Source: Pseudofabraea citricarpa
Taxonomy: Eukaryota; Ascomycota; Leotiomycetes; Helotiales; Dermateaceae
Assembly (NCBI GenBank): GCA_029641185.1
Contig: JAPWGK010000003.1
Span: 744,001-808,000, forward strand
Reading direction: 5' to 3'
Length of the DNA: 64,000 bases
The notes under the pieces were generated by a model. That model saw only the letters and a program-made list of their open reading frames with translations. It ran no database searches and was not told the DNA's origin. The position numbers and the translations under genes were made by a program. The stretch's first letter is position 1. Each line of letters starts with the position of its first letter. This document shows positions 12,175-41,833 of the stretch, piece after piece.

Positions 12175-13357
12175 GAAATGATACATGGTTGAAATGCTTG
12201 TCATAGCAGCGAATTTTCCTTATCCGCTGTCAACATTTTGTTTGGCATTCTATAATATTAATTATCTCTAATTGTTCCAAAGGAAGTTTCAACCAGTGTT
12301 ATCTAGTGGATCCGAGTAGCTATTTCCAGGTCAGGAACAATCCTAAAATCATCGTAGGCCCCTAAAAACAACATCTCAGATGTACGTGGAAAACACGTGC
12401 CAGTGAAAAGATTCAATTGATACTTTTCTGGAGGGCACATTCTATTTAGTACCTAGGCGATCCTGTTATTGATATTGCCTTCACACCACTCTCAACTTCC
12501 AACTTAGAGGAAGACCGAGTGATATCCTGGCGCGTATATATTACCATCTAAGCGGTGGTGGTAACAGCGAAGCGAAGACGATTCTTAGTCCTTCTCTCTT
12601 TGCGAACTTTGTTCTTCCCCTATCCCTGCACCTACTTAAAATGACTCTCAGCCCATCTTCTTTTAAGAGATGCCACAGCGGGATATCTATCAATTAACGT
12701 CAAGACTACAGGTGTAGAGAAAATGTTGCAGAAACAACAGTGTTGAAGGGATCTCCTTTCACCTGGGCAAAAATAGGTGTGGTCATCATGCTATTGTCAG
12801 CCCGTCTTCTGTTGTCGTTATATATGATCTGTGGTTATTACATCTTTGTGCTTTCGCGATATACTTTATCCGAAATAGATAAGTTTCATTATCATCCTGT
12901 TTTCGGTCTGTGTTCGGTTCTTAAGTATAGATTCTGTTATCATTATATCTATCCTTATACTTATGTGGTATATTTCTTGGCTAAGATAAATAATCGCTAG
13001 CATTATATACTCTTACTAGATCGGTTTATATATTTTGACGATATAGTTAAGGAGTTCTAAATTACAAGTACAATGTATTTCATTATTCACACCAAAGGAA
13101 CAAAAAGAAAAGGAGAAAAGAGAAATTCGGCCCATTCATATTCTCTTGCAGAATCCATATCCTTTCATTCCAGTCGTTGAATATCGAGATCCTATTAAGC
13201 CCAAATCAACTCCTCATGATATTCATCAAGCGTTCCAGATCATACAATACAAGCGAGACAACATAACACAACAATAACATAACAAAGAGCAACAAATACA
13301 GCGAGGGAAAGCCTCTGAAAGAAAGACAATAGAAGCTTGGTGATGAATAAAACTATC
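12175..13357. other. AT-rich intergenic between hri1 and the Cys/His module genes
   Basis: No gene is recognised. The hri1 3' flank passes into AT-rich sequence with scattered short open frames lacking family features. None of the Cys/His module signatures found to the right occurs here. Confidence 0.4.
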
Positions 13358-15326
13358 TTAGATACCTCCCCGTCGTCTTCCGAATGCCGGATAATTCGTA
13401 TCATAATCGCGTCGAAAATCGGCACCAAAATCAGGACTGATTCGCGCGTTATAATCTACATTTGCTCGAATCAGCCAACCAGCCATAGCTACAAAAGCCC
13501 GTATGTTCTACGCTATACTTACGATCCATACAGTAGCCACCAATGCGAGGCTCGGGGGACTTCTTCTCGCTGCAGCTAGGTACTTTGCATGCATCTATCT
13601 AGGTCAGCATGGCTGGGTTTATTCACTTTATTGTTGTGAAGTATGGAGTAGATTTGAGTCTACGTACGATTCTGACAATACCCAAGCGTGTTCCGGATTA
13701 CATTGTGGCAGTTTTGATCTCGGCATTCATCTGCACATATGGAATTAATATGCGTAAGGGTCAGATGTAACTTGTAAGAGGAAGAGTGACATGACATACG
13801 TTGATCGCAAAACTCGCTCTGACTGGGTCGGTCGTTGGAGGCAAAATAGTACTTTCTGGATTCAACACAACCTTCTTTCTTGCAAGTGTCTGTGATCATT
13901 AACCCTTTGTTTGTTTCGAAGTTATGGCTAGAGAGATTACTTACGTTTATCGCAGAATAGATCAGCGCCTTCGGCACAACCTCGAGCGAAACATGTATCT
14001 ATCATCATTCAGCTACTGACAGCTTGTTTTGGAATACTCGAGACACATACGATTCTCGCAATATCTCGAACTCGGAAATTGTTCTCTATTGCAAGATGGG
14101 CTGCTACACTTCATGACCGGCGGCGGCGGCGCTATATAGTCTTCTGGAGTTTCAGCGGATTTCCAAAGATGCAAAAGATATGTTACAACTTACGTCTCGC
14201 ACAACATCTATCGTAACCAGAACCGATTCTCTTCCGCATGCGGGTGCAATCCGTCGTGGTGCAAGTATGTCTAACGCAAAGGTTTCCAGTGCCCTGCTTC
14301 CTCTCGCTGCAATTCTTTGCGTCGCACAAGTCTGCGATGGTTGTTAGTATATGTGGGATTGTCAGTTGGTCTTTTGGTAGATTATACGGATGAAACAGAA
14401 TCTCTCTCGTTGCATAGAATCCTCGTAACAGTGTCGCCGGTGGAGACACCCCTCGCTGCTGCATTTATGTTCTCTGCAGTAGCCAGAGTCTCGCATGGGG
14501 GATTTTCCACAGCCTTCAATTTTACATGCTGGTGGAGCTGGCCTGGGCACAGGGGCATGTTTTGGGGTGTCTAATGTTTGTTAGCTTTTGATATTGTATC
14601 GGACTGCTGAATACTGACGATTCTCACAGAACGAAGATGGTGTTTTGGTTGCACGGTTGATTGACTTGGCTGAAGTACATCCTGCATGCTCACAAGTATC
14701 TTGAAGCCTGTTAGCAGCGGTTGGGAATATTCATGGGAGAAAGGTATGCCCATACGTTGTACGCAATAGCGGAATTTGGTAGACCTGACATCTTCTTTGC
14801 GAAGATTATTGCAGTTTCTCGCCTCGCAGCAATCTTAGAAGACAATCAGCTTTTCCCTCAACAGATCGATATCAACACTTACGCCCAGTGCAGTAGAGAG
14901 CATCTCCAGCTTTCTCCTTGTCGCAGATTGCAACTTTACATTTATCTATACGCCACCTGTGAGTATGCATGTCAAAATAGCTAATTGGTTCCATAGAGCA
15001 CTCACGAGGGATGCAATATTTTACTCCTTTCGCGCTCTTCTCCTTGCAATTTGCAGCCTGGCAACCATCTTTCGAGTATGTTAGTAAAGAAAGTACTTCG
15101 TGTTTCAACAGCTGGGTTGCTTACGATGTGAGCAGTACTTGTCAGTGTGACTTTTCTCTCGAGGGCAGGGTACTCCAGGATCTAGAAACAGGTCACAGTG
15201 GTCTTGAACAATCGTCAGCCCTTAATCAAGTATGTCCAAGAACAAGGCCAACTCACGAGCCTTGCAAAAATCTGTTCCTCTGTGGCCGCCAACATCCTTG
15301 CAGCCTATCCGAATGCACTTAAACAT
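13358..15326 (-). CDS. Multi-module Cys/His repeat protein, one module per exon (gene B)
   Basis: Fourteen exons give 403 residues: 15326-15257, 15202-15125, 15068-15006, 14945-14883, 14833-14756, 14699-14619, 14570-14388, 14331-14194, 14131-14051, 13998-13945, 13889-13800, 13730-13668, 13594-13523 and 13455-13358. Each internal exon is a multiple of 3 nt (54-183) and sits between phase-1 introns. Fifteen modules are readable, with consensus C-x4-C-(7 to 21)-[F/Y]-C-x2-H-x-C, for example KCIRIGC...FC and HTCKKEGC...FC. The histidine codon is split C|AC or C|AT by the intron in most modules and is uninterrupted within the 14570-14388 and 14331-14194 exons. The last exon is a Cys-free Arg/Asp/Tyr-rich tail ending GRRRGGI. 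The spacing suggests a zinc-binding C2CH finger array; I do not recognise a named family. No signal peptide is seen. An in-frame ATG at 15434 would add 36 residues. Confidence 0.75.
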
Positions 15327-16386
15327 GATTATTTGTTTCAGCACTAAAACAAGACGAGAGTCTTCAATGGCAAATCGATAAATTAGGGTGAAATCAAAGT
15401 TTTCTGCTAGGCCAGTGAAAGCGTTGTTGGGCAACCCAGAGTCTAACAGCCGGTGGGCTCTTATAGAAACCCGAGAAAGAAAAACGTATCAAACGGCAAG
15501 GCGCAGCTTTTTTGCTCTCTTTGGTTGATTGTCATCCGAACCGTGTCATTTTGCAGGCTGCGATTTTTTTGGTTGAGTTGGTGTGCCCACATGGACAGCC
15601 TCCTGTGCCAAGGCAGCGCCCTATGGATGTGCTTACTGAGGACCGTTCTACAAGGCTCAGCACTTGCTGCAAAGATGGCTTTTTGCTGCACTGCCTTCAA
15701 ATTCCCTGTTTGCCTAATAGCACATGCAATTACCTGATTGCCAATGATGGGGAGAATTAGGTGGAAGCGCTGCAGTATCAAAAAAAAATCCAGGAACTCT
15801 GGACAAGAGCCTCAGAGCCTCAAAAAAACCAAATCAGTTTCGCAGCTGAGGTTCTATTAAACTGTGATAAATTAAACCCCTCCAGTGTAAGTTTAAGTTT
15901 CTATGCATTAAAATTGTATGAAGGTCACTTAAAACTATACCTGAAAGGATGAGATGCACCCCATCCTTGTAAATTAATGTGAGGCTACACGAAGGCCTCT
16001 GCTCAAAGTAGGCTTGAAGGATTGTGCTGGTCAGATGCTGTTCGGCTTATTGCCAGAGCTAAATCCACTCACCGAAATGGAGGGGTGAGAAGGTTGTGCG
16101 GTTGGGAGGTAATTGCGGCTAAGAAGGCCAATTTCAAGTGGCTCATCCTCTGGCTTACACGATTTGCACAGGGTTCGTGTAACCATCTGAATTACATAGG
16201 CTCAGCCGCAATTTTCCTTTCTACAAGCGATAAAACACTAATATACGCATTCCTATGAATATAAATCAAACACAGCCAGAAATTGCTAGGACTGAAATGA
16301 ATAAAAGTACAACAAAAGAGCATCCTCGCATCCTACAAAGTTCTTGCCTCCTATCACATCTAGAAAGCGAAATCATGAGATTATCT
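15327..16386. other. Spacer between the two Cys/His module genes
   Basis: I see no Cys/His module with flanking splice sites in this roughly 1-kb gap, which should hold the promoter of the downstream gene and the 3' flank of the upstream one. An open minus-strand frame at 15461-15781 has no family feature. The 15434 ATG lies at the left end and could be the true start of gene B. Confidence 0.4.
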
Positions 16387-18063
16387 TCACCTAGGGCGTT
16401 GAAATATCTGTGTGAAGCGGGTTCCGTTTGTTTCGCGTTGAGATGTTGGGTGTAATTGGTTCTGCATATCCTGTTTGATTATGAAGTCATGATCTATGGT
16501 TGGTCAGATTTGAATTTTCATTAATCATATGACCTGACTTACGTTCAACACAATGCCCATCAATTCCTTTCGTCCTCAATCCCTCGTTTATACATTCGAC
16601 TATCGTACAGGCATCTACAAGTGAAAATCGTTAGCTTTTACAGTATGATATAGTACTTGAAGACACGTACGGATATTACAGAAACCTAAGCGACCGCTGG
16701 TCGGATCTCTCGTCTTTTCATGACACTTTTCCTTTCTACATTCATCTATATGTGGTCAGCCATAATATATGTAGATGAAGGTATGATTCTCTAACGAAGC
16801 TGGCAGTATCCGCTCTGTATGCTTTTTCCTTTCTTGATGTAGTATCTTGATGGCTGGTCACAGTCGGTTTCTATGCATGTATCTGAGTGAAATATTTAGC
16901 ATCGTGGTCTTGAATGGCAGGGAAACCATTACGCTCGCTGCAATATAAGATAGCTTCGTTGGGGCATCCTTGATTAAGACAAGTATCTATAAATAGTTAG
17001 TGCGTCTACTCATGGAATTCTGAAGGCAGTAACTTACGGTTTTTGCAGAAATTCGAGTCCCGGAATCTTTCGAGAGAGCAATCTGAAGCGACCGTCTTAC
17101 ATCTAAGTATAGCATTATAGTCTACACAAATGTAAGTAAGGGTTGAGAACTCCTTGAGTTGAGAATTGATCATACGGTCTTGGCAGTACGTCTCGAATCC
17201 CGTACCGTTCTCTTTCTTCTCTTTAGAGCATCCCAGGAACATACAGGTATGATCATTACAACATTCGGAATTTCCCCTTGCAGAGTTGCTGCAGTTCTTC
17301 GTCAAGCAAAGTGTGACAGGGAAAGCTTGCAAAATATCTACAAAATCAACATCGTCACATCATATTGGACAGTAAGTGTAAACTTACGGGCTGCACAAAA
17401 TAAAGAGCCGTTCTCAGGTTGCCTCTCCGTACATTCTGAACCCTGGCAATTGTCTAGGCGTATTCATTAGCGTTTGCGTAAGAGAGCTTCTGATGAGAAT
17501 CTTATGAAAGCTTACGATCCACACAGTACTTAAATCGGATTCCATCCGTGAATTGCTTTTGTTTGTTGTGACAATTATCCAGCGAGCACTTATCTGTTTC
17601 TTTGTAAGCGTCATTTCGCCTTCTTCGGATTCCAGGACTTGATCTTACGATTTCGACAGAATTGCAGAACTGATCCTATGGCATCTCTATCTCTAATATG
17701 TTTACAGCCATCAATCTCACATAGGTCTAATCTCTAATGTTAGTAAATGATGCATAAACCACCGTCCAGAGACTTACGAGACTTGCAGCCAGCCATGCCT
17801 ACCCTCCGCATTTCTTTACAGCTGCTAAATGCACAAGTATCTCGAAGCTTGAATTAGATACATTATAGCAGTTCTAAAGCATAGAAAAACTCACGGTTTT
17901 TACAACAATCCGTATTATGGGATGCCTTTTTGTGACATTGGGGTTTTTTACTTGGTACGTAACGGCAGTTGTCTGTGCATAAATGAGAAACTTCAAGTCG
18001 AGTTAACATAAAAGAGTAACCTACGAAAGGTGCAATATGAAAAGCCTCTTGCCGTTTTCTCAT
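16387..18063 (-). CDS. Multi-module Cys/His repeat protein, one module per exon (gene A)
   Basis: Twelve exons give 360 residues: 18063-17895, 17840-17778, 17726-17649, 17593-17516, 17453-17388, 17337-17176, 17121-17038, 16986-16933, 16870-16796, 16745-16671, 16614-16543 and 16493-16387. The architecture matches gene B: phase-1 introns, internal exons of 54-162 nt all divisible by 3, and modules C-x4-C-...-C-x2-H-x-C. The exon 17337-17176 carries two modules with an intact CAT codon between them (CCNDHTC), which confirms the split-histidine reading elsewhere. The 16870-16796 module has lost a cysteine, and the terminal exon is degenerate (NGTRFTQIF without Cys). The 5' end is uncertain: an alternative donor at 18024 joined to 17972 would attach an upstream piece ending YCTF and also rebuild C-x2-H-x-C. 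Probably a zinc-binding array; function unknown. Confidence 0.7.
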
Positions 18064-19618
18064 AGCAGCCTCGTTATGTGCAAGCCATGGCTAATTTTCA
18101 AGAGGACGAACCAAATGTTATGTTTAACTCGTGTTGGTTGAGAAGACTAAGATCGGTCCGGACAAGCGAATGGAAAGTCGCATGGAGAAATAGGGTTTGT
18201 GACAGATCAATTGCTATATATACAAGGAACAGGAGGGGCAGAGTGCAAAAGATGGTGTTTTGCCACACCTACATGTCTTTGGTCCATTTCCCTGCGAGTC
18301 TCAATCAAATGCCTAATATACCGGGCGCGCTGCGGTGGTGGCTTTGAATCATGCATAGGCTTGATCGAAGGCTGATTTCGCCCGACTGAAGATGAGGCTT
18401 TGGCATATATCTGCAAATGAATGTCTGCAGCAGAATAAACAGGGCCTGACCGACCAACTATTAGTCAAAAACGGTACAATTCATCGGCTTCACTTCCCTT
18501 AGTAATTACAACTTTTTACTAATGAATTTCTAGTAGAAATTATCTACGGAATCAAAATGAAGAAAGGTAGAAAGAAGAAAAAGAAGAAGAAAAGCCCGCA
18601 TTTGATGCATACTACTTAGCTCCCAAAGGAAATCATAATTTATGTAAAGCATCACAGGCAAATAATCAGATACTCGGTCAACAACAAGAATTGCAACTCG
18701 GCACAGCCTCGGCCTATATTGTTCTTGTTGTTGCCTTACTCTCCGCCCGATAAACAGCCCTATGTGCAACATATCTGCATGGGGAGAATACGTATGGTCA
18801 GATGTCACATTGCCTTCGGAGGTGATCCGATCAAGATACTCGAGAAGAGGCTGTGACAGCAGGGCTTTTGTACATCTGCATTTCTGCATGCTTTATGCAG
18901 CTTATGCAACCACTTGGAGGACATAGCCATAGCCACAATCATAAACATCCATACAGTATCAACGCAGATGCAGAGCCTCGTGTTGACAACATTTGGTTGG
19001 AGGGAAAGTAGATGAAAAGCCAATTCGAGGTATTAAAGTTGTGAGTACGGTAGAGCGGAGCTGGTATGCTTTGTGCTCGGCAGCTCGCATTCTTGGCAGC
19101 ATGTATTTGACGTACTCAAATTTCCAATTGGGATGTGGTGATTGGAGAAGGCTTATTAACACTAGAATTAAGCCCTAGCCAGCGCATCGTTCTGCAATTT
19201 AGAAAGTACCGAGAAGGTTGAACTCAATGCTGGCGACATCTAATTTGGCCACTCAGTGCCGTGCCGGAGAGGCAGAGGTGGATATTGCCGGTTGTTGGGG
19301 AGAGGTTGAAGTTAGAAGTCGAGGTTGAGCGTGTTGACGATAAGGTGGAATCGCATCACGTGAGCATCACCAGCCACACGTGTCCGAGCTCAAGCTCAAG
19401 CTCTCTCGGACTTTACCGCATTTGGCGTGTCCGGGCTATCGTGTCAGCGTGTCAGACCAGTGACGTCGGACTAATTTGTATCAAGTTCAGGTCGCGCGTA
19501 CGATATCATGGCATCCCGCGACTAACAACTCCACCAGCCACCACCACACGTCCTTCTTTCCCCTGATCTGCTCTGATCTGATGGATGCCATCTCTTCCCC
19601 ATAATCATAGTCATCATC
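18064..19618. other. Intergenic between gene A and the PhoD-like gene
   Basis: No gene is recognised. A possible extra 45-nt coding piece of gene A lies at 18025-18069. The last 250 bp before 19619 form the promoter and leader of the phosphatase gene. Confidence 0.4.
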
Positions 19619-21656: not shown

Positions 21657-22106
21657 TTCCGATGTCTCAATATTTGATGACCGGCGTTTGGCTATGTTGG
21701 CAATAGACGAGATTTTATCTTTGCAGGCAGGAGGGATCAGATGATTTATAAATGCCAAACTTGGTAATTGGTAATTCGCTTCGTGCTCTACTGTAGTATT
21801 AAATATTTACTTGAAAATTCTCCAATCTACGTGAATCAAATAGCAGTCCTGTGCAGAGTATGACGTAAATCTAAGGCAAGTACCTCACAGTCATTCTTGG
21901 AAACGAGATTAAGTCCAATGAATATATATGATGCCATTTCGAAGCTGTATGGTACAGCTAGAAACTAGCTACCTTTATTTCCGAGTCCTAAACACTTCTT
22001 CATACTAAAACAAAGCTACGGGAATAGACAAGTGACCAAACAGAGGACTTGGGTCTTTAGACTTCAGAAGATTTTAGGCATATGGTATTATGCGAACAGT
22101 TTTGCA
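21657..22106. other. 3' flank of the PhoD-like gene
   Basis: AT-rich sequence with no recognised gene, leading into the repeat array. Confidence 0.4.
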
Positions 22107-23722
22107 TTTCGTTGCGTTACGGACTCGGCCCAAGCTTCTGTGGATAGTGCTAACTGGTATATATCTAGGTTTAAGGTACCTACCTACCTTGTTCCTTACC
22201 AGTTGATTTCGTTGCGTTACGGACTTGGCCCAAGCTTCTGTGGATAGTGCTAACTGGTATATATCTAGGTTTAAGGTACCTACCTACCTTGTTCCTTACC
22301 AGTTGATTTCGTTGCGTTACGGACTTGGCCCAAGCTTCACTGAATAGTGCCAACTTGCAGATAGGTACTCAGGCACTGTATTCCCTACTATTTCATTTCG
22401 TTGCGTTACGGACCGGTCAAAGCTTTAGTGAATGGGATCAGTCTACAAGTGGAGCATAGAATTCCGTTGCATTACGGAGTGGTCCAAGCTTCTCTCTTTC
22501 CTAAATGAAGAAAGCCAACTAGTAAATATTTCGTTGCATGACAGAGTGATCCAAGCTTCACTAAATATAATATTCACTAGTAAGTATGTATTTAGGTACC
22601 TCTTGTCAAGTACCCTCTGCTCTTTCGTTGCATGACGGACTAATCCAAGCTTCACCAAATGATACTCACTGGTAAATATATACTTAAGTACCTCATGTCA
22701 GATACCCTCTGCTATTTCGTTGCGTTACGGACCTTTATCAACATTCACTACTAGTGAGTAGTGAAAATGGTGTATCACAGGTTCTTTCGTTGCATGACGG
22801 AGTGGTCCAAGCTTTTTGATAATAGTACCAATCAGTAGATACATACTTAGATATGTTCCTACTTCGTTGCGTTACGGACTGTTCAAAGCTCAGGTGAATA
22901 GGACCAGCTAACAAGTGGTACTTTGGAATTTCGTTGCGTTACAGAGCAATGAGTAGTGAATGAATAAACATAGTATATAAAATAAGATGATAAGCAATAG
23001 CATTTCGTTGCATGACGAATATTTCAGTGAATGTAGTTGGCTGATATATAAGTAAAGATAGGTAGGTAGGTACCTAGGTACATAAGCACTAGAAATTCCG
23101 TTGCACTACGAACAGCGGTCCAAGCTTTTGTTAGCACTCACTTACCCTCACCTTCGAGATATAAAATTTCGTTGCACTACGATCAATGGTCCAAGCTTTT
23201 GTTAGCACTCACTTACCCTCACCTTCGAGATATAAAATTTCGTTGCACTACGATCAATGGTCCAAGCTTCTGCTAACACTCACTCACCCTCACCTTGGGA
23301 TCATGACCAAGTAATCAATTTTCGTTGCGCGACGGACTTTCAAGTCATTCCAGTGTGAGTTTCTCTGGGGCTTAAACACTATATGTTGTTCAAAATCGTT
23401 GCATGACGGACCTTCAAAAAGAAAAGCCTTAGTGAGTAGGCAAAAGCAGGTTATGGATCTTCGTTGCGTGACGGACTTATGATTCACTCCAGTGGGTGGT
23501 TTTGCAGCGCCAAAACCCTATGATGGTATCCTAAATAATGGAAACACAGAATTTTACCTAGGAATTGTAAGTAGGTATAAATAAGCAGGCAATAGCTTTC
23601 GTTGCATGACGGACGTTCAAAAAACGGAGGTGCATTGTACTTAGCGATCGCTTAAAAGAGGGGTTCTGGATTTGTGCAGTTCACGTGATACATAATTGCC
23701 AAAGTTTTGTTGCATATCGCAC
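22107..23722 (+). repeat. Array of ~20 copies of an 18-bp core, TTTCGTTGCRTKACGGAC
   Basis: The core TTTCGTTGC[GA]T[TG]ACGGAC recurs about twenty times, at roughly 22107, 22207, 22307, 22396, 22463, 22530, 22623, 22713, 22783, 22862, 22929, 23002, 23096, 23167, 23238, 23321, 23396, 23460 and 23597, with a degenerate copy at 23705. Many copies continue into a second block, YGGTCCAAGCTTC. Spacing is 65-140 bp. The first three copies are exactly 100 bp apart with near-identical spacers, and 23167/23238 are a 71-bp duplication; other spacers are unrelated AT-rich sequence containing GGTACCT runs. All copies are on the same strand. No open frame runs through it, and no terminal inverted repeats or target duplications are visible. 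Its nature is unknown. Confidence 0.85.
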
Positions 23723-23741
23723 CTTCAGCTTCAGGGCTGAT

Positions 23742-23818
23742 TGAGCCCTGACTGAGCCCTGATTGAGCCCTGACTGAGCCCTGACTGAGCCCTGACTGAG
23801 CTCTTATTGAGCTCCGAA
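23742..23818 (+). repeat. 11-bp minisatellite TGAGCCCTGAY
   Basis: Seven head-to-tail units, the last two diverged (TGAGCTCTTAT, TGAGCTCCGAA). Related CAGCCCTGA pieces on either side extend it to about 23725-23841. It directly follows the 18-bp-core array. Confidence 0.85.
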
Positions 23819-23841
23819 TCAGCCCTGACACAGCCCTGAAC

Positions 23842-24667
23842 CACCTTCAAGTAGGTAGTTAGTGATTCACCTCTAAACACTCAATGTTTTATTCAACTGC
23901 TCCGCTTTCTACAAAGATGCAGGAGAGATAAACATTAATACAAGAAGTGTGTTCCCGGGAGGATAGCTTTAAAGGAAGTTTGAAGCTGAATAAAGAGATT
24001 TTATATAGCCTAGACTGAGTTTAGACCCCACTTTCCTAAGATATTTGGTCCTGCCAAAATTATTCATTTGACATGAGAAATTCTCGAGTGCTGTATAGAC
24101 AAATAGTTGCAATCAGGTGAGTTTCTGCTTTGTGGTATACCACAGAGCCCAGCTGATGCATGTAGAAAATCAACATCTATGTGGTGCATCGTTAGCAGGA
24201 AAAGGATTCAAGACACTACATTCTCTAGAGTGAGTTGGTAAGCTGGAATTTCAGCTTGAAGGGTTTGGCACTTTTGATAGTCTTACCAGATGAGTATGAA
24301 TAGGCGCTGTAAAGCTTTATCCCCCAGCAGTTGGGAGATGATATTTCCTCCATAAAACTCTGTCCACTTCAAAGATTGCGGACTAGTCCCCAAAATTTGC
24401 AGTCAATTCCGAACACTGCAGTGGTAAGAATAGATTGAGGCAGGCTTTTGCTAGGTTGTGACAACAGCATGAGAGCTCAAGCCAATCGAGTATGACAAAA
24501 AAGGTAAAGCTCAAGATGCATGGCAGTATTGTTAAATTGGGAAGCTCAACTTGGAAATGTTAACTCTTTGCCTGATCTATTCGGGATGATAAGATTTTTG
24601 TTGACAAGTCAGAGTTGTTCCGGACGAGGCTTCTCGTGATTGGATTTCTGGGCCTCCTCTGCAACAA
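23842..24667. other. Intergenic
   Basis: AT-rich sequence. I see no gene, RNA or repeat. Confidence 0.4.
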
Positions 24668-40234: not shown

Positions 40235-41833
40235 TTATCCTCTGCCAAATCGTCTATCAAACAGCTTCAGCACTCCCATAACACTCGCCGCCTCTACCTC
40301 CATGGGAGCCCTTCCAACATGCTGAGGTGGAGTGGCATGAAGACGTCCAAGCCAAGTACTTAAATCATCAGTTGCTTGGTCAAAGGCTCTATGTGTTGAT
40401 AGAGTCTTGTAAGTATCTGCAACGGACAGGCTTGGAGGCTGTGAAGGTTGTGATGTTTGAGATGTTTGAGGTTGCTTGCAACAACCTCCACCGTTGGCAT
40501 TACCACCACAGCACCCGGCTTCAGGGGTAGCAGATGATGATGCACGCATGGCTGCCAGCGAACGACAGAAGAGGCCAGCCTTGGGATCACTCTGGCACTG
40601 TTGACATGTACCCGGACCATTGACACACGAGTTTGATGGCGCTTGAGCGCCGACAGGTCGATGCATCTGATTTGGTTGCAGTGATGGCAGCTTGAGTTGT
40701 CCACCCTCGACGTCTGTATCTGATGGTGGGGGAGTGACCTCATTCAATAGAGGTGCAAGTCGGTTCTCACGATCGTCAGCGGTCTGTGCCGCGTTCTCTG
40801 CACAAACACAGAAACCTCCATCGGCACAGAAACCACACGACTCGCCCGGAACACGTTGTACCAGGTGATCTGTAGACTCTTGGATCATGATATCTTGATC
40901 CGAAATCCGCTTACTTGAGAATTGAGCTGTGAAGTCAACCTCGAGAGGAGTGATTGGATCTGCTGACTGGCGGTGACGTTTCTCGATTGAGTCTTCCGCC
41001 GATGGAGAGATTGGTCGCTTGAGATCTTTCGGGTTTGGCGGTGCGAGCGTAGAGACTTCGATGGTCTCTTGCAAACATTGACAATGAGTCTCATCTGAAC
41101 ATTTCCCGCAGCCTGTGGTCGTGATCTTAATCGCCTCTTCCAGACACTCACACTGGTTCGGAGTGCATTTACCGCAACCGATGGAAGTAGATAGCTCGGG
41201 TTCGGGCGCAGATACAAATGGGACATATCGTTGTTGGTGTTGTCGAGTTTGGACGGGCTCCTTTGGTTGTTGATTACGATTACGTCTTGGTGGCAGTGGA
41301 ACCGCATCGGTGCCGGTGGTGCGAGCACCATTTCGAAGGTAGGATAACTCCGTCAGAGCACTCTCTTTTTCTCTCCGTTCATAATCCACGATGCGGTCCA
41401 AAGTATCACACCGCAGTCTCCATGACTGCACCTCTCCGCTGAACCGGAGGACCTCTGCCTCGAGTCTTGTAATCTTGTCCCGCAGCTCTCCCTCTCGCTT
41501 CTGCTGCTCTTCCTTGGTCTCTTCCAGCTGCTCCTCTAATTCACCCACGCGGGCGGCTCGTCTCTCTCTAAAGGCTCGTTGAGCAGCTCGGTTCTGTGCT
41601 TTTCGCTTGGTGGGTGGTGTGTCGGTTGCAGGCTTTCGTCCAGGCTTCGGGCGGGGCGGCACGATCCATTCCTTCCTGGTGACGATGGTCGGTGTAGCCA
41701 GGCCTGATGCTGGAGAGATAGCAGCTGTCGTGGATGAGGAGTTCATGTTCTTGATGGCAAGCATGGGTGGTGCTGGAGCGAGAGCACAGGGCGAACCCGC
41801 TGTCGAGGGACTGGAAACTGCAGGTGAGGCCAT
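40235..41833 (-). CDS. hapX: Iron-responsive bZIP regulator HapX
   Basis: A single exon encodes 532 residues. The signature order of HapX is clear. EWIVPPRPKPGRKP (residues 55-68) belongs to the N-terminal region that contacts the CCAAT-binding complex. The basic region around KRKAQNRAAQRAFRERR (76-92) is followed by a coiled coil to about 165. Cysteine-rich regions come next: CGKCTPNQCEC (220-230), CGKCSDETHCQC (242-253), CGFCADGGFCVC (333-344), and CVNGPGTCQQC with a further Cys at 423. A final CC...CC cluster spans 441-452. Family knowledge: with the CCAAT-binding complex HapX represses iron-consuming genes and activates siderophore functions when iron is short, and the cysteine regions sense iron as Fe-S ligands when iron is high. 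The upstream GATA motif (42093-42101) fits repression by the SreA-type factor. Divergent from cog2. Confidence 0.95.
   Translation of the reverse strand: MASPAVSSPSTAGSPCALAPAPPMLAIKNMNSSSTTAAISPASGLATPTIVTRKEWIVPPRPKPGRKPATDTPPTKRKAQNRAAQRAFRERRAARVGELEEQLEETKEEQQKREGELRDKITRLEAEVLRFSGEVQSWRLRCDTLDRIVDYERREKESALTELSYLRNGARTTGTDAVPLPPRRNRNQQPKEPVQTRQHQQRYVPFVSAPEPELSTSIGCGKCTPNQCECLEEAIKITTTGCGKCSDETHCQCLQETIEVSTLAPPNPKDLKRPISPSAEDSIEKRHRQSADPITPLEVDFTAQFSSKRISDQDIMIQESTDHLVQRVPGESCGFCADGGFCVCAENAAQTADDRENRLAPLLNEVTPPPSDTDVEGGQLKLPSLQPNQMHRPVGAQAPSNSCVNGPGTCQQCQSDPKAGLFCRSLAAMRASSSATPEAGCCGGNANGGGCCKQPQTSQTSQPSQPPSLSVADTYKTLSTHRAFDQATDDLSTWLGRLHATPPQHVGRAPMEVEAASVMGVLKLFDRRFGRG

Follow-up and report, generated by a model that had tools for sequence, protein, structure and literature searches.

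How might a fungus come to build proteins as strings of small metal-binding modules, each encoded by an exon of its own? This question is raised by two adjacent genes, here called A and B, in a stretch of 64,000 nucleotides (nt) of the Pseudofabraea citricarpa genome (GenBank assembly GCA_029641185.1, 44.0 Mb in 43 contigs; contig JAPWGK010000003.1, or C23, positions 744001-808000), to which we refer as the window. Both genes were modelled from the DNA of 13358-18088, whose minus strand was read manually and with a script, and we describe alongside them a third gene, C, on another contig (C28:281391-283198) and one annotated relative from a different species. It appears probable that these proteins represent a new, Helotiales-like fungal family of intracellular Cys-Cys-Cys-His (CCCH) arrays, that the arrays grew by duplication of symmetrical exons bounded by phase-1 introns (class 1-1 exons), and that A and B go back to one ancestral gene.

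An original prediction, made from the letters of this locus, had described about 26 exons, with about 12 modules in A and about 15 in B and one module per exon, and had both the position and the minus strand right. Our models agree, with 14 exons in B and 12 in A. Gene B encodes 15 modules and 399 amino acids in a frame that is open from start to stop (15326-13358), and gene A encodes 12 modules and 334 residues, counted from its first clear exon (17972-16387), with a 13th, first-exon-like module upstream that contains a stop. Gene C comprises 11 exons, 10 modules and 415 residues. As had also been predicted for A and B, internal exons are multiples of 3 throughout, here in all three genes; they measure 54-183 nt, and those with a single module 54-90 nt. 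Introns are 48-75 nt long in A and B, and 45-78 nt across A, B and C, with a uniform site and phase. The coincidence of one symmetrical 1-1 exon with one module is seen in A, B and C, save for three exons that each hold two modules with no intron in between (A 17337-17176; B 14570-14388 and 14331-14194).

The position of the introns relative to the module is strikingly regular. All 35 of them (12 in A including a putative first one, 13 in B, and all ten in C) are of the GT-AG type, lie in phase 1 and split the codon of the closing His after its first base, leaving C upstream and AY downstream; in each of the 24 modelled introns of A and B the donor is preceded by a C and the acceptor is followed by AC or AT. 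Where the original prediction had placed the intron in this codon "almost always", in these models it is always found there; the observation is correct, and slightly stronger than it had been put. The split His is the last ligand of a module C-x4-C-x(n)-C-x2-H, consecutive modules are mostly joined as H-x-C, and, by hand count in the models of the three genes, an intron is present at 35 of the 38 module-module and module-tail joints. The predicted spacings hold for most of the 37 modules (C-x4-C in 33, closing C-x2-H in 36), but the aromatic residue expected ahead of the closing Cys occurs in only 25 and is thus a majority feature. All four ligands are kept in the 25 of 27 A and B modules that were aligned, A module 1 and B module 2 having been excluded as atypical. 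Beyond this the modules have little in common, as predicted: within one gene, pairwise identity averages 33-34% and reaches 56% at most. Cys makes up 11 to 14% of the arrays. Since internal exons begin with AY and end with C, any exon-exon joint would rebuild the His, the reading frame and the metal site, so that the gain, loss or skipping of an exon would be silent for the other modules.

To judge how readily such chains arise by chance, we used a chain finder, which recovered exon chains of 11 and 10 at the locus. Of 300 dinucleotide shuffles of 13000-18400, 299 yielded no chain at all and the remaining one a chain of 1; in the remainder of the window, too, chains did not exceed 1. As the finder had been designed after the genes were seen, independent support was sought in gene C and in the annotated protein of the other species. 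Searches of the whole genome with splice-site patterns gave no overall enrichment on the donor side (32 matches versus 61 for the reversed control with one pattern, 29 versus 34 with a second), the sole standout being the clustering at C23 and C28: the first pattern matched eight times at this locus and twice on C28, about 270 base pairs (bp) apart, and the second added two matches at either place. An acceptor-side pattern matched 167 times, versus 140 for its control, the matches listed reaching as far as a point within C23. The 47 donor-side matches outside the described genes (22 of 32 and 25 of 29), scanned on both strands with at least about 1.4 kb of flank on each side, revealed no strict module exon and no module chain, and three of these loci showed relaxed, chance-like matches only; genes with other donors, or without an F or Y next to the closing Cys, may be missed by such patterns. 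A genome search with the array of gene C returned C itself plus a single weak match in each of the other two genes.

When residues 1-250 of gene C were compared with 5.8 billion proteins, a single match at an expect value (E) of 10 or less emerged from 388 candidates. It is the uncharacterized protein BP6252_09694 of Coleophoma cylindrospora (E 8.5e-103, 71% identity, 86% of the query), which we call P0001; Coleophoma belongs to the Helotiales, in line with the fungal origin that had been predicted for the locus. The nine modules of P0001 pair one to one, and in the same order, with the first nine of gene C. In the aligned arrays 28 of 29 Cys and 8 of 8 His are identical, compared with 116 of 177 other residues, and in the tail 96 of 150 aligned residues are identical. 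Leaving aside a single residue close to the N terminus, the P0001 array has just one gap, which coincides precisely with the 28 residues encoded by gene C exon 10; unless the annotation omitted an exon, the two genes would differ by a single one. Two helices are predicted in the P0001 tail, one of 96 residues, for which the predicted local distance difference test (pLDDT) score lies mostly above 93, and one of 44 residues (81-90), whose sequence is well conserved in gene C. No Pfam domain was found in P0001 at cut-off, tail included, and an NCBIfam match to TolA at residues 218-325 within the tail (27.1 bits versus a cut-off of 59.45) is taken as compositional. With regard to a possible movement of the module between unrelated proteins, the tail of gene C is unlike those of A and B, although tails could have diverged, and A and B have a co-linear 3' half in common. 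In common with P0001, the last exon of gene C (L021 3892-4409, minus strand, C28) encodes an extended run rich in Lys, Glu and Ala as well as a C-terminal segment that is conserved.

How are A and B related to each other? The two proteins are 34% identical in a whole-protein alignment, and the order of their modules over the whole arrays scores 189.2, versus 118.5 +/- 15.3 when permuted, a score that none of 2000 permutations attained. This signal stems from the last seven modules, A6-12 and B9-15, which are co-linear by themselves (0 of 2000). This block spans 163 codons, in which 28 of 31 Cys and His columns are identical, compared with 32 of 132 for the remaining columns; agreement at codon positions 1, 2 and 3 is 0.56, 0.57 and 0.36, as expected of a constrained protein. 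In addition, the intronless joint in A exon 17337-17176 aligns with the one in B exon 14331-14194. Co-linearity, ligand constraint and the common missing intron together indicate that in A and B the 3' halves were copied from one array, have been kept under constraint and have diverged by point change; the 5' halves may have undergone whole-exon change or have diverged past recognition. The original prediction was right on the 1-1 architecture, but its claim of exon shuffling is only partly supported and was too strong: shuffling may have acted on the 5' halves but finds no support in the 3' halves. One exon-sized difference separates C from P0001.

Among the 595 pairs formed by the 35 introns, mean identity is 0.475 versus 0.455 for shuffled sequences, and the best pair reaches 0.62 versus 0.63; for A and B alone the means are 0.480 and 0.463. 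Introns barely more alike than shuffled ones, together with modules no more than 56% identical, indicate that the duplications that built the arrays, and their joints, would be old. A recent, introner-like origin of the introns was considered and rejected, as no intron pair exceeds the best shuffled pair, although the mean is slightly higher. Repeat-induced point mutation (RIP) was also rejected as the cause of divergence, its signature being absent from genes A and B (composite index -0.34 and -0.51).

We conclude that a symmetrical 1-1 exon, duplicated in tandem, probably gave rise to the arrays. In the ancestor, one exon flanked by two phase-1 introns would have encoded the module, with the closing His codon split behind its first base, and because any such exon could follow any other, tandem duplication would have produced strings of 9 to 15 CCCH modules, typically C-x4-C-x(7-19)-C-x2-H, each of which most likely holds one zinc ion. 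A and B, whose last seven modules can still be paired one by one, would have arisen by a later gene duplication; C is a separate gene in which a long helical tail follows the array. From that time on, change would have consisted mainly of point substitutions around fixed ligands, with whole modules occasionally gained or lost; that whole-exon change has been slow but likely is suggested by P0001 and by the 12 or 13 modules of A versus 15 of B.

Several observations weigh against this reading. The 5' parts (A1-5 and B1-8) are no more co-linear than permuted arrays (938 of 2000 permutations as high), and co-linearity is absent between B and C (847 of 2000) and weak between A and C (77 of 2000), so that common descent in these cases is argued from the module and intron plan. 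In gene A, the stretch 18088-18025 has the position of B exon 1, an ATG and the Cys spacing of a module up to YC-x2-C at the donor, and the putative intron leading to exon 17972-17895 again splits a His codon, but a TAA lies in frame between its first two Cys, and gene A may, given this stop, not be a source of the protein. From an alternative ATG, at 18063, an open frame continues across the next intron into that of exon 17972-17895; gene A would either start there, start elsewhere, or be broken at its 5' end. Among the 37 modules, C-x4-C is broken in four and C-x2-H in one. Homologue searches found no match for protein B at E 0.001 among 218 candidates, and of the 75 candidates for protein A none matched at E 10. 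P0001, for its part, is a predicted protein, and a genome search with protein B returned B alone and not even A, although the latter failure also marks that search as blunt. Finally, no zinc-binding family was matched at cut-off, and AlphaFold2 modelled the modules with low confidence, both in a two-module exon aligned with 20 other exons of the window (mean pLDDT 63.5) and in P0001 (mean pLDDT 58.2). For these last two reasons zinc binding, which we consider very probable, rests on the ligand pattern.

An alternative history would start from an intronless array into which introns were inserted later, one by one, at the same preferred site of each module, either at a proto-splice site that recurs there or in a wave of the introner kind. 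Some fungi are known to have undergone such waves of intron gain, and the uniform site, phase and length (45-78 nt) of the introns, the three of 38 joints that lack one, and a mean intron identity slightly above that of shuffled sequences would all be compatible with such a course. However, that no intron pair beats the best shuffled pair argues against a recent wave, the absence of an intron from the same aligned joint in A and B fits one ancestral pattern, and the Coleophoma relative would lack a whole exon, as expected if exons are the units of change, which leaves late insertion unlikely. The original prediction itself viewed the exons as cassettes that are actively shuffled or alternatively spliced to make variable arrays. 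It is true that all internal exons are interchangeable by frame and ligand, that P0001 has nine modules versus ten in gene C, and that A and B differ in module number and in their 5' halves; yet the 3' halves of A and B are co-linear, nine of nine P0001 modules pair with gene C in order, and the absence of any within-gene module pair above 56% identity means that there is no sign of recent exon duplication, so that ongoing shuffling seems distinctly unlikely. We regard as improbable the related idea of a family of interchangeable metal-binding exons in which skipping, or the gain and loss of single exons, creates a repertoire of arrays, and it is equally doubtful that its outcomes can be seen in the nine-module P0001 and in the dissimilar 5' halves of genes A and B.

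It could also be asked whether A and B are genes at all in a functional sense, rather than decaying relics, duplicates of a once useful array whose protein is no longer made. The in-frame stop in the first-exon-like module of A, two atypical donors in the same gene (judged by eye), a G+C content of A and B below most of the window, and the fact that no annotated relative of either was found would fit decay. Against it stand a frame in B that is open across 14 exons, A-B ligand columns conserved far above other columns, the alternative in-frame start of A at 18063 and the lack of a RIP signature in both genes, and we see little likelihood in this explanation. A different function was considered as well: with their high Cys content, the proteins might be metal stores or buffers, similar to metallothioneins, with no binding partner. 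The metallothionein pattern consists of CC and CxC clusters, whereas the spacing observed here is what one would expect of structural modules that hold a single zinc and use a His ligand; non-ligand residues, too, are kept between A and B and between C and P0001, and gene C shares its long helical tail with the latter. A role as metal stores thus appears very unlikely. 

In the reading that we prefer, an old array family grown by exon duplication, the proteins would probably be intracellular, zinc-stabilized arrays that bind nucleic acid or proteins. Inspection by eye shows no evident signal peptide, and with isoelectric points of 8.2-8.9 the proteins are basic. The binding role is a guess from their plan, and to binding of nucleic acid in particular we give slightly less than an even chance.

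Do these proteins belong to a family that is already known? At full length they match no Pfam and no NCBIfam family at cut-off, the latter collection being built for prokaryotes, and the original prediction, which had named no family, holds in this respect. When single modules were scanned against Pfam (23 of the 25 aligned ones, two being too short), only weak matches were obtained, with one or two modules each for zf-TRM13_CCCH (PF11722, E 0.0037), WRC (PF08879, 0.027) and Perm-CXXC (PF15629, 0.038). The impression of a likeness to WRKY19-type repeats was correct insofar as Zf_WRKY19 (PF24906), also a short Cys/His unit, matched weakly (15.8 and 14 bits; E 0.005 for one of 23 modules), but these scores stay below the cut-off of 27 bits, and the model has four sub-threshold and no over-threshold matches in this genome; it further differs in inter-module spacing and in its plant and oomycete range. 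For zf-C3Hc3H (PF13891), the score was 12.5 bits versus a cut-off of 27, two of 23 modules matched weakly (best E 0.017), and six frames of this genome gave no match at E 1. The EsV-1-7 family (PF19114), which includes IMMEDIATE UPRIGHT of Ectocarpus, likewise contains a repeated cysteine-rich motif, but its matches are sub-threshold (8.8 bits versus a cut-off of 25; E 0.026 for one of 23 modules) and its linker is longer than the H-x-C joint seen here. In the relevant parts of two papers, EsV-1-7 is described as patchily distributed across eukaryotes and viruses (PMC7457493, PMC12993054). Against solved structures, a module profile gave one chance-like match (E 1.9) and an array profile none, and a search of open-access papers, P0001 locus tag included, found no publication on this family. 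As far as Pfam, NCBIfam, PDB, protein and literature searches tell, A, B, C and P0001 thus form an undescribed family, of a familiar kind, with short Cys/His modules in tandem, but of unusual gene structure. What it has in common with the weakly matching families is the ligand set, which need not mean descent. As its internal exons measure only 54-183 nt, gene finders may miss the family.

Features of genes A and B in the window (positions within the window)
Feature	Coordinates	Strand	Content
Gene B, whole coding span	13358..15326	-	14 exons, 15 modules, 399 aa, 0 internal stops
B exon 1	15257..15326	-	start codon and module 1
B exon 2	15125..15181	-	module 2, without first Cys
B exon 3	15006..15068	-	module 3
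B exon 4	14883..14945	-	module 4
B exon 5	14756..14833	-	module 5
B exon 6	14619..14699	-	module 6
B exon 7	14388..14570	-	modules 7 and 8, no intron between
B exon 8	14194..14331	-	modules 9 and 10, no intron between
B exon 9	14051..14140	-	module 11
B exon 10	13945..13998	-	module 12
B exon 11	13800..13889	-	module 13
B exon 12	13668..13730	-	module 14
B exon 13	13523..13594	-	module 15
B exon 14	13358..13455	-	tail and stop codon
Gene A, whole span with first-exon-like stretch	16387..18088	-	12 exons, 12 modules, putative 5' end
A first-exon-like stretch	18025..18088	-	ATG, module with in-frame TAA, terminal C before GT
A exon	17895..17972	-	module 1, atypical first Cys pair (x9)
A exon	17778..17840	-	module 2
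A exon	17649..17726	-	module 3
A exon	17516..17593	-	module 4
A exon	17388..17453	-	module 5
A exon	17176..17337	-	modules 6 and 7, intronless joint aligned with joint in B exon 8
A exon	17038..17121	-	module 8
A exon	16933..16986	-	module 9
A exon	16796..16882	-	module 10
A exon	16671..16745	-	module 11
A exon	16543..16614	-	module 12
A last exon	16387..16493	-	tail and stop codon

The neighbourhood of the two genes contains repeats of a different kind. Some 4 kb beyond gene A on its 5' side, on the plus strand at 22106-23614, lie 19 copies of the 17-bp motif TTCGTTGCRTKACGGAC with up to 3 mismatches (0.32 expected by chance), their starts 65-138 bp apart and their spacers mostly unrelated save for three short tandem stretches of 2-3 units. 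The motif occurs in 192 exact copies genome-wide, versus 0 for the reversed pattern, and is clustered among the matches listed. Five other clusters hold 10-37 copies each with up to 4 mismatches, mostly 50-110 bp apart; four of the five have a single orientation throughout, the fifth has 31 of 37 copies in one orientation, and any two of the six arrays have only 0-19 20-mers in common. We take part of the motif to resemble the mammalian CENP-B box, and the array could be a set of binding sites, the subterminal repeats of a transposon or a chromatin nucleation site. Adjoining it, at 23737-23839, is a tandem 11-bp unit, CTGACTGAGCC, in 9.4 copies. Of all 2-kb blocks in the window, 22001-24000 alone has a composite RIP index above zero (0.16), and it coincides with the motif array. 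Further away, a 532-residue open frame on the minus strand (40235-41833) looks by eye like an AP-1/Yap1-type basic leucine zipper protein with Cys-rich ends.

In their symmetrical 1-1 exons with one module each, the genes described here resemble the exon-shuffled class 1-1 modules of Metazoa, which a review, in the part relevant here, presents as mostly extracellular and animal (PMC8001218). The present modules differ in being fungal, in belonging to proteins without a signal peptide evident by eye, in the small size of their single-module exons (54-90 nt) and in the intron that cuts a metal-ligand codon. That review, in the same part, asks why exon shuffling, with domains of class 1-1, was restricted to Metazoa (PMC8001218), and a class 1-1 exon family in a fungus, probably intracellular and with the intron inside a metal-ligand codon in 35 of 35 cases, bears on this question. 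It adds a module that no Pfam or NCBIfam model recognizes at cut-off, and it may serve as a natural test of the idea that introns allow repeat proteins to become longer or shorter.

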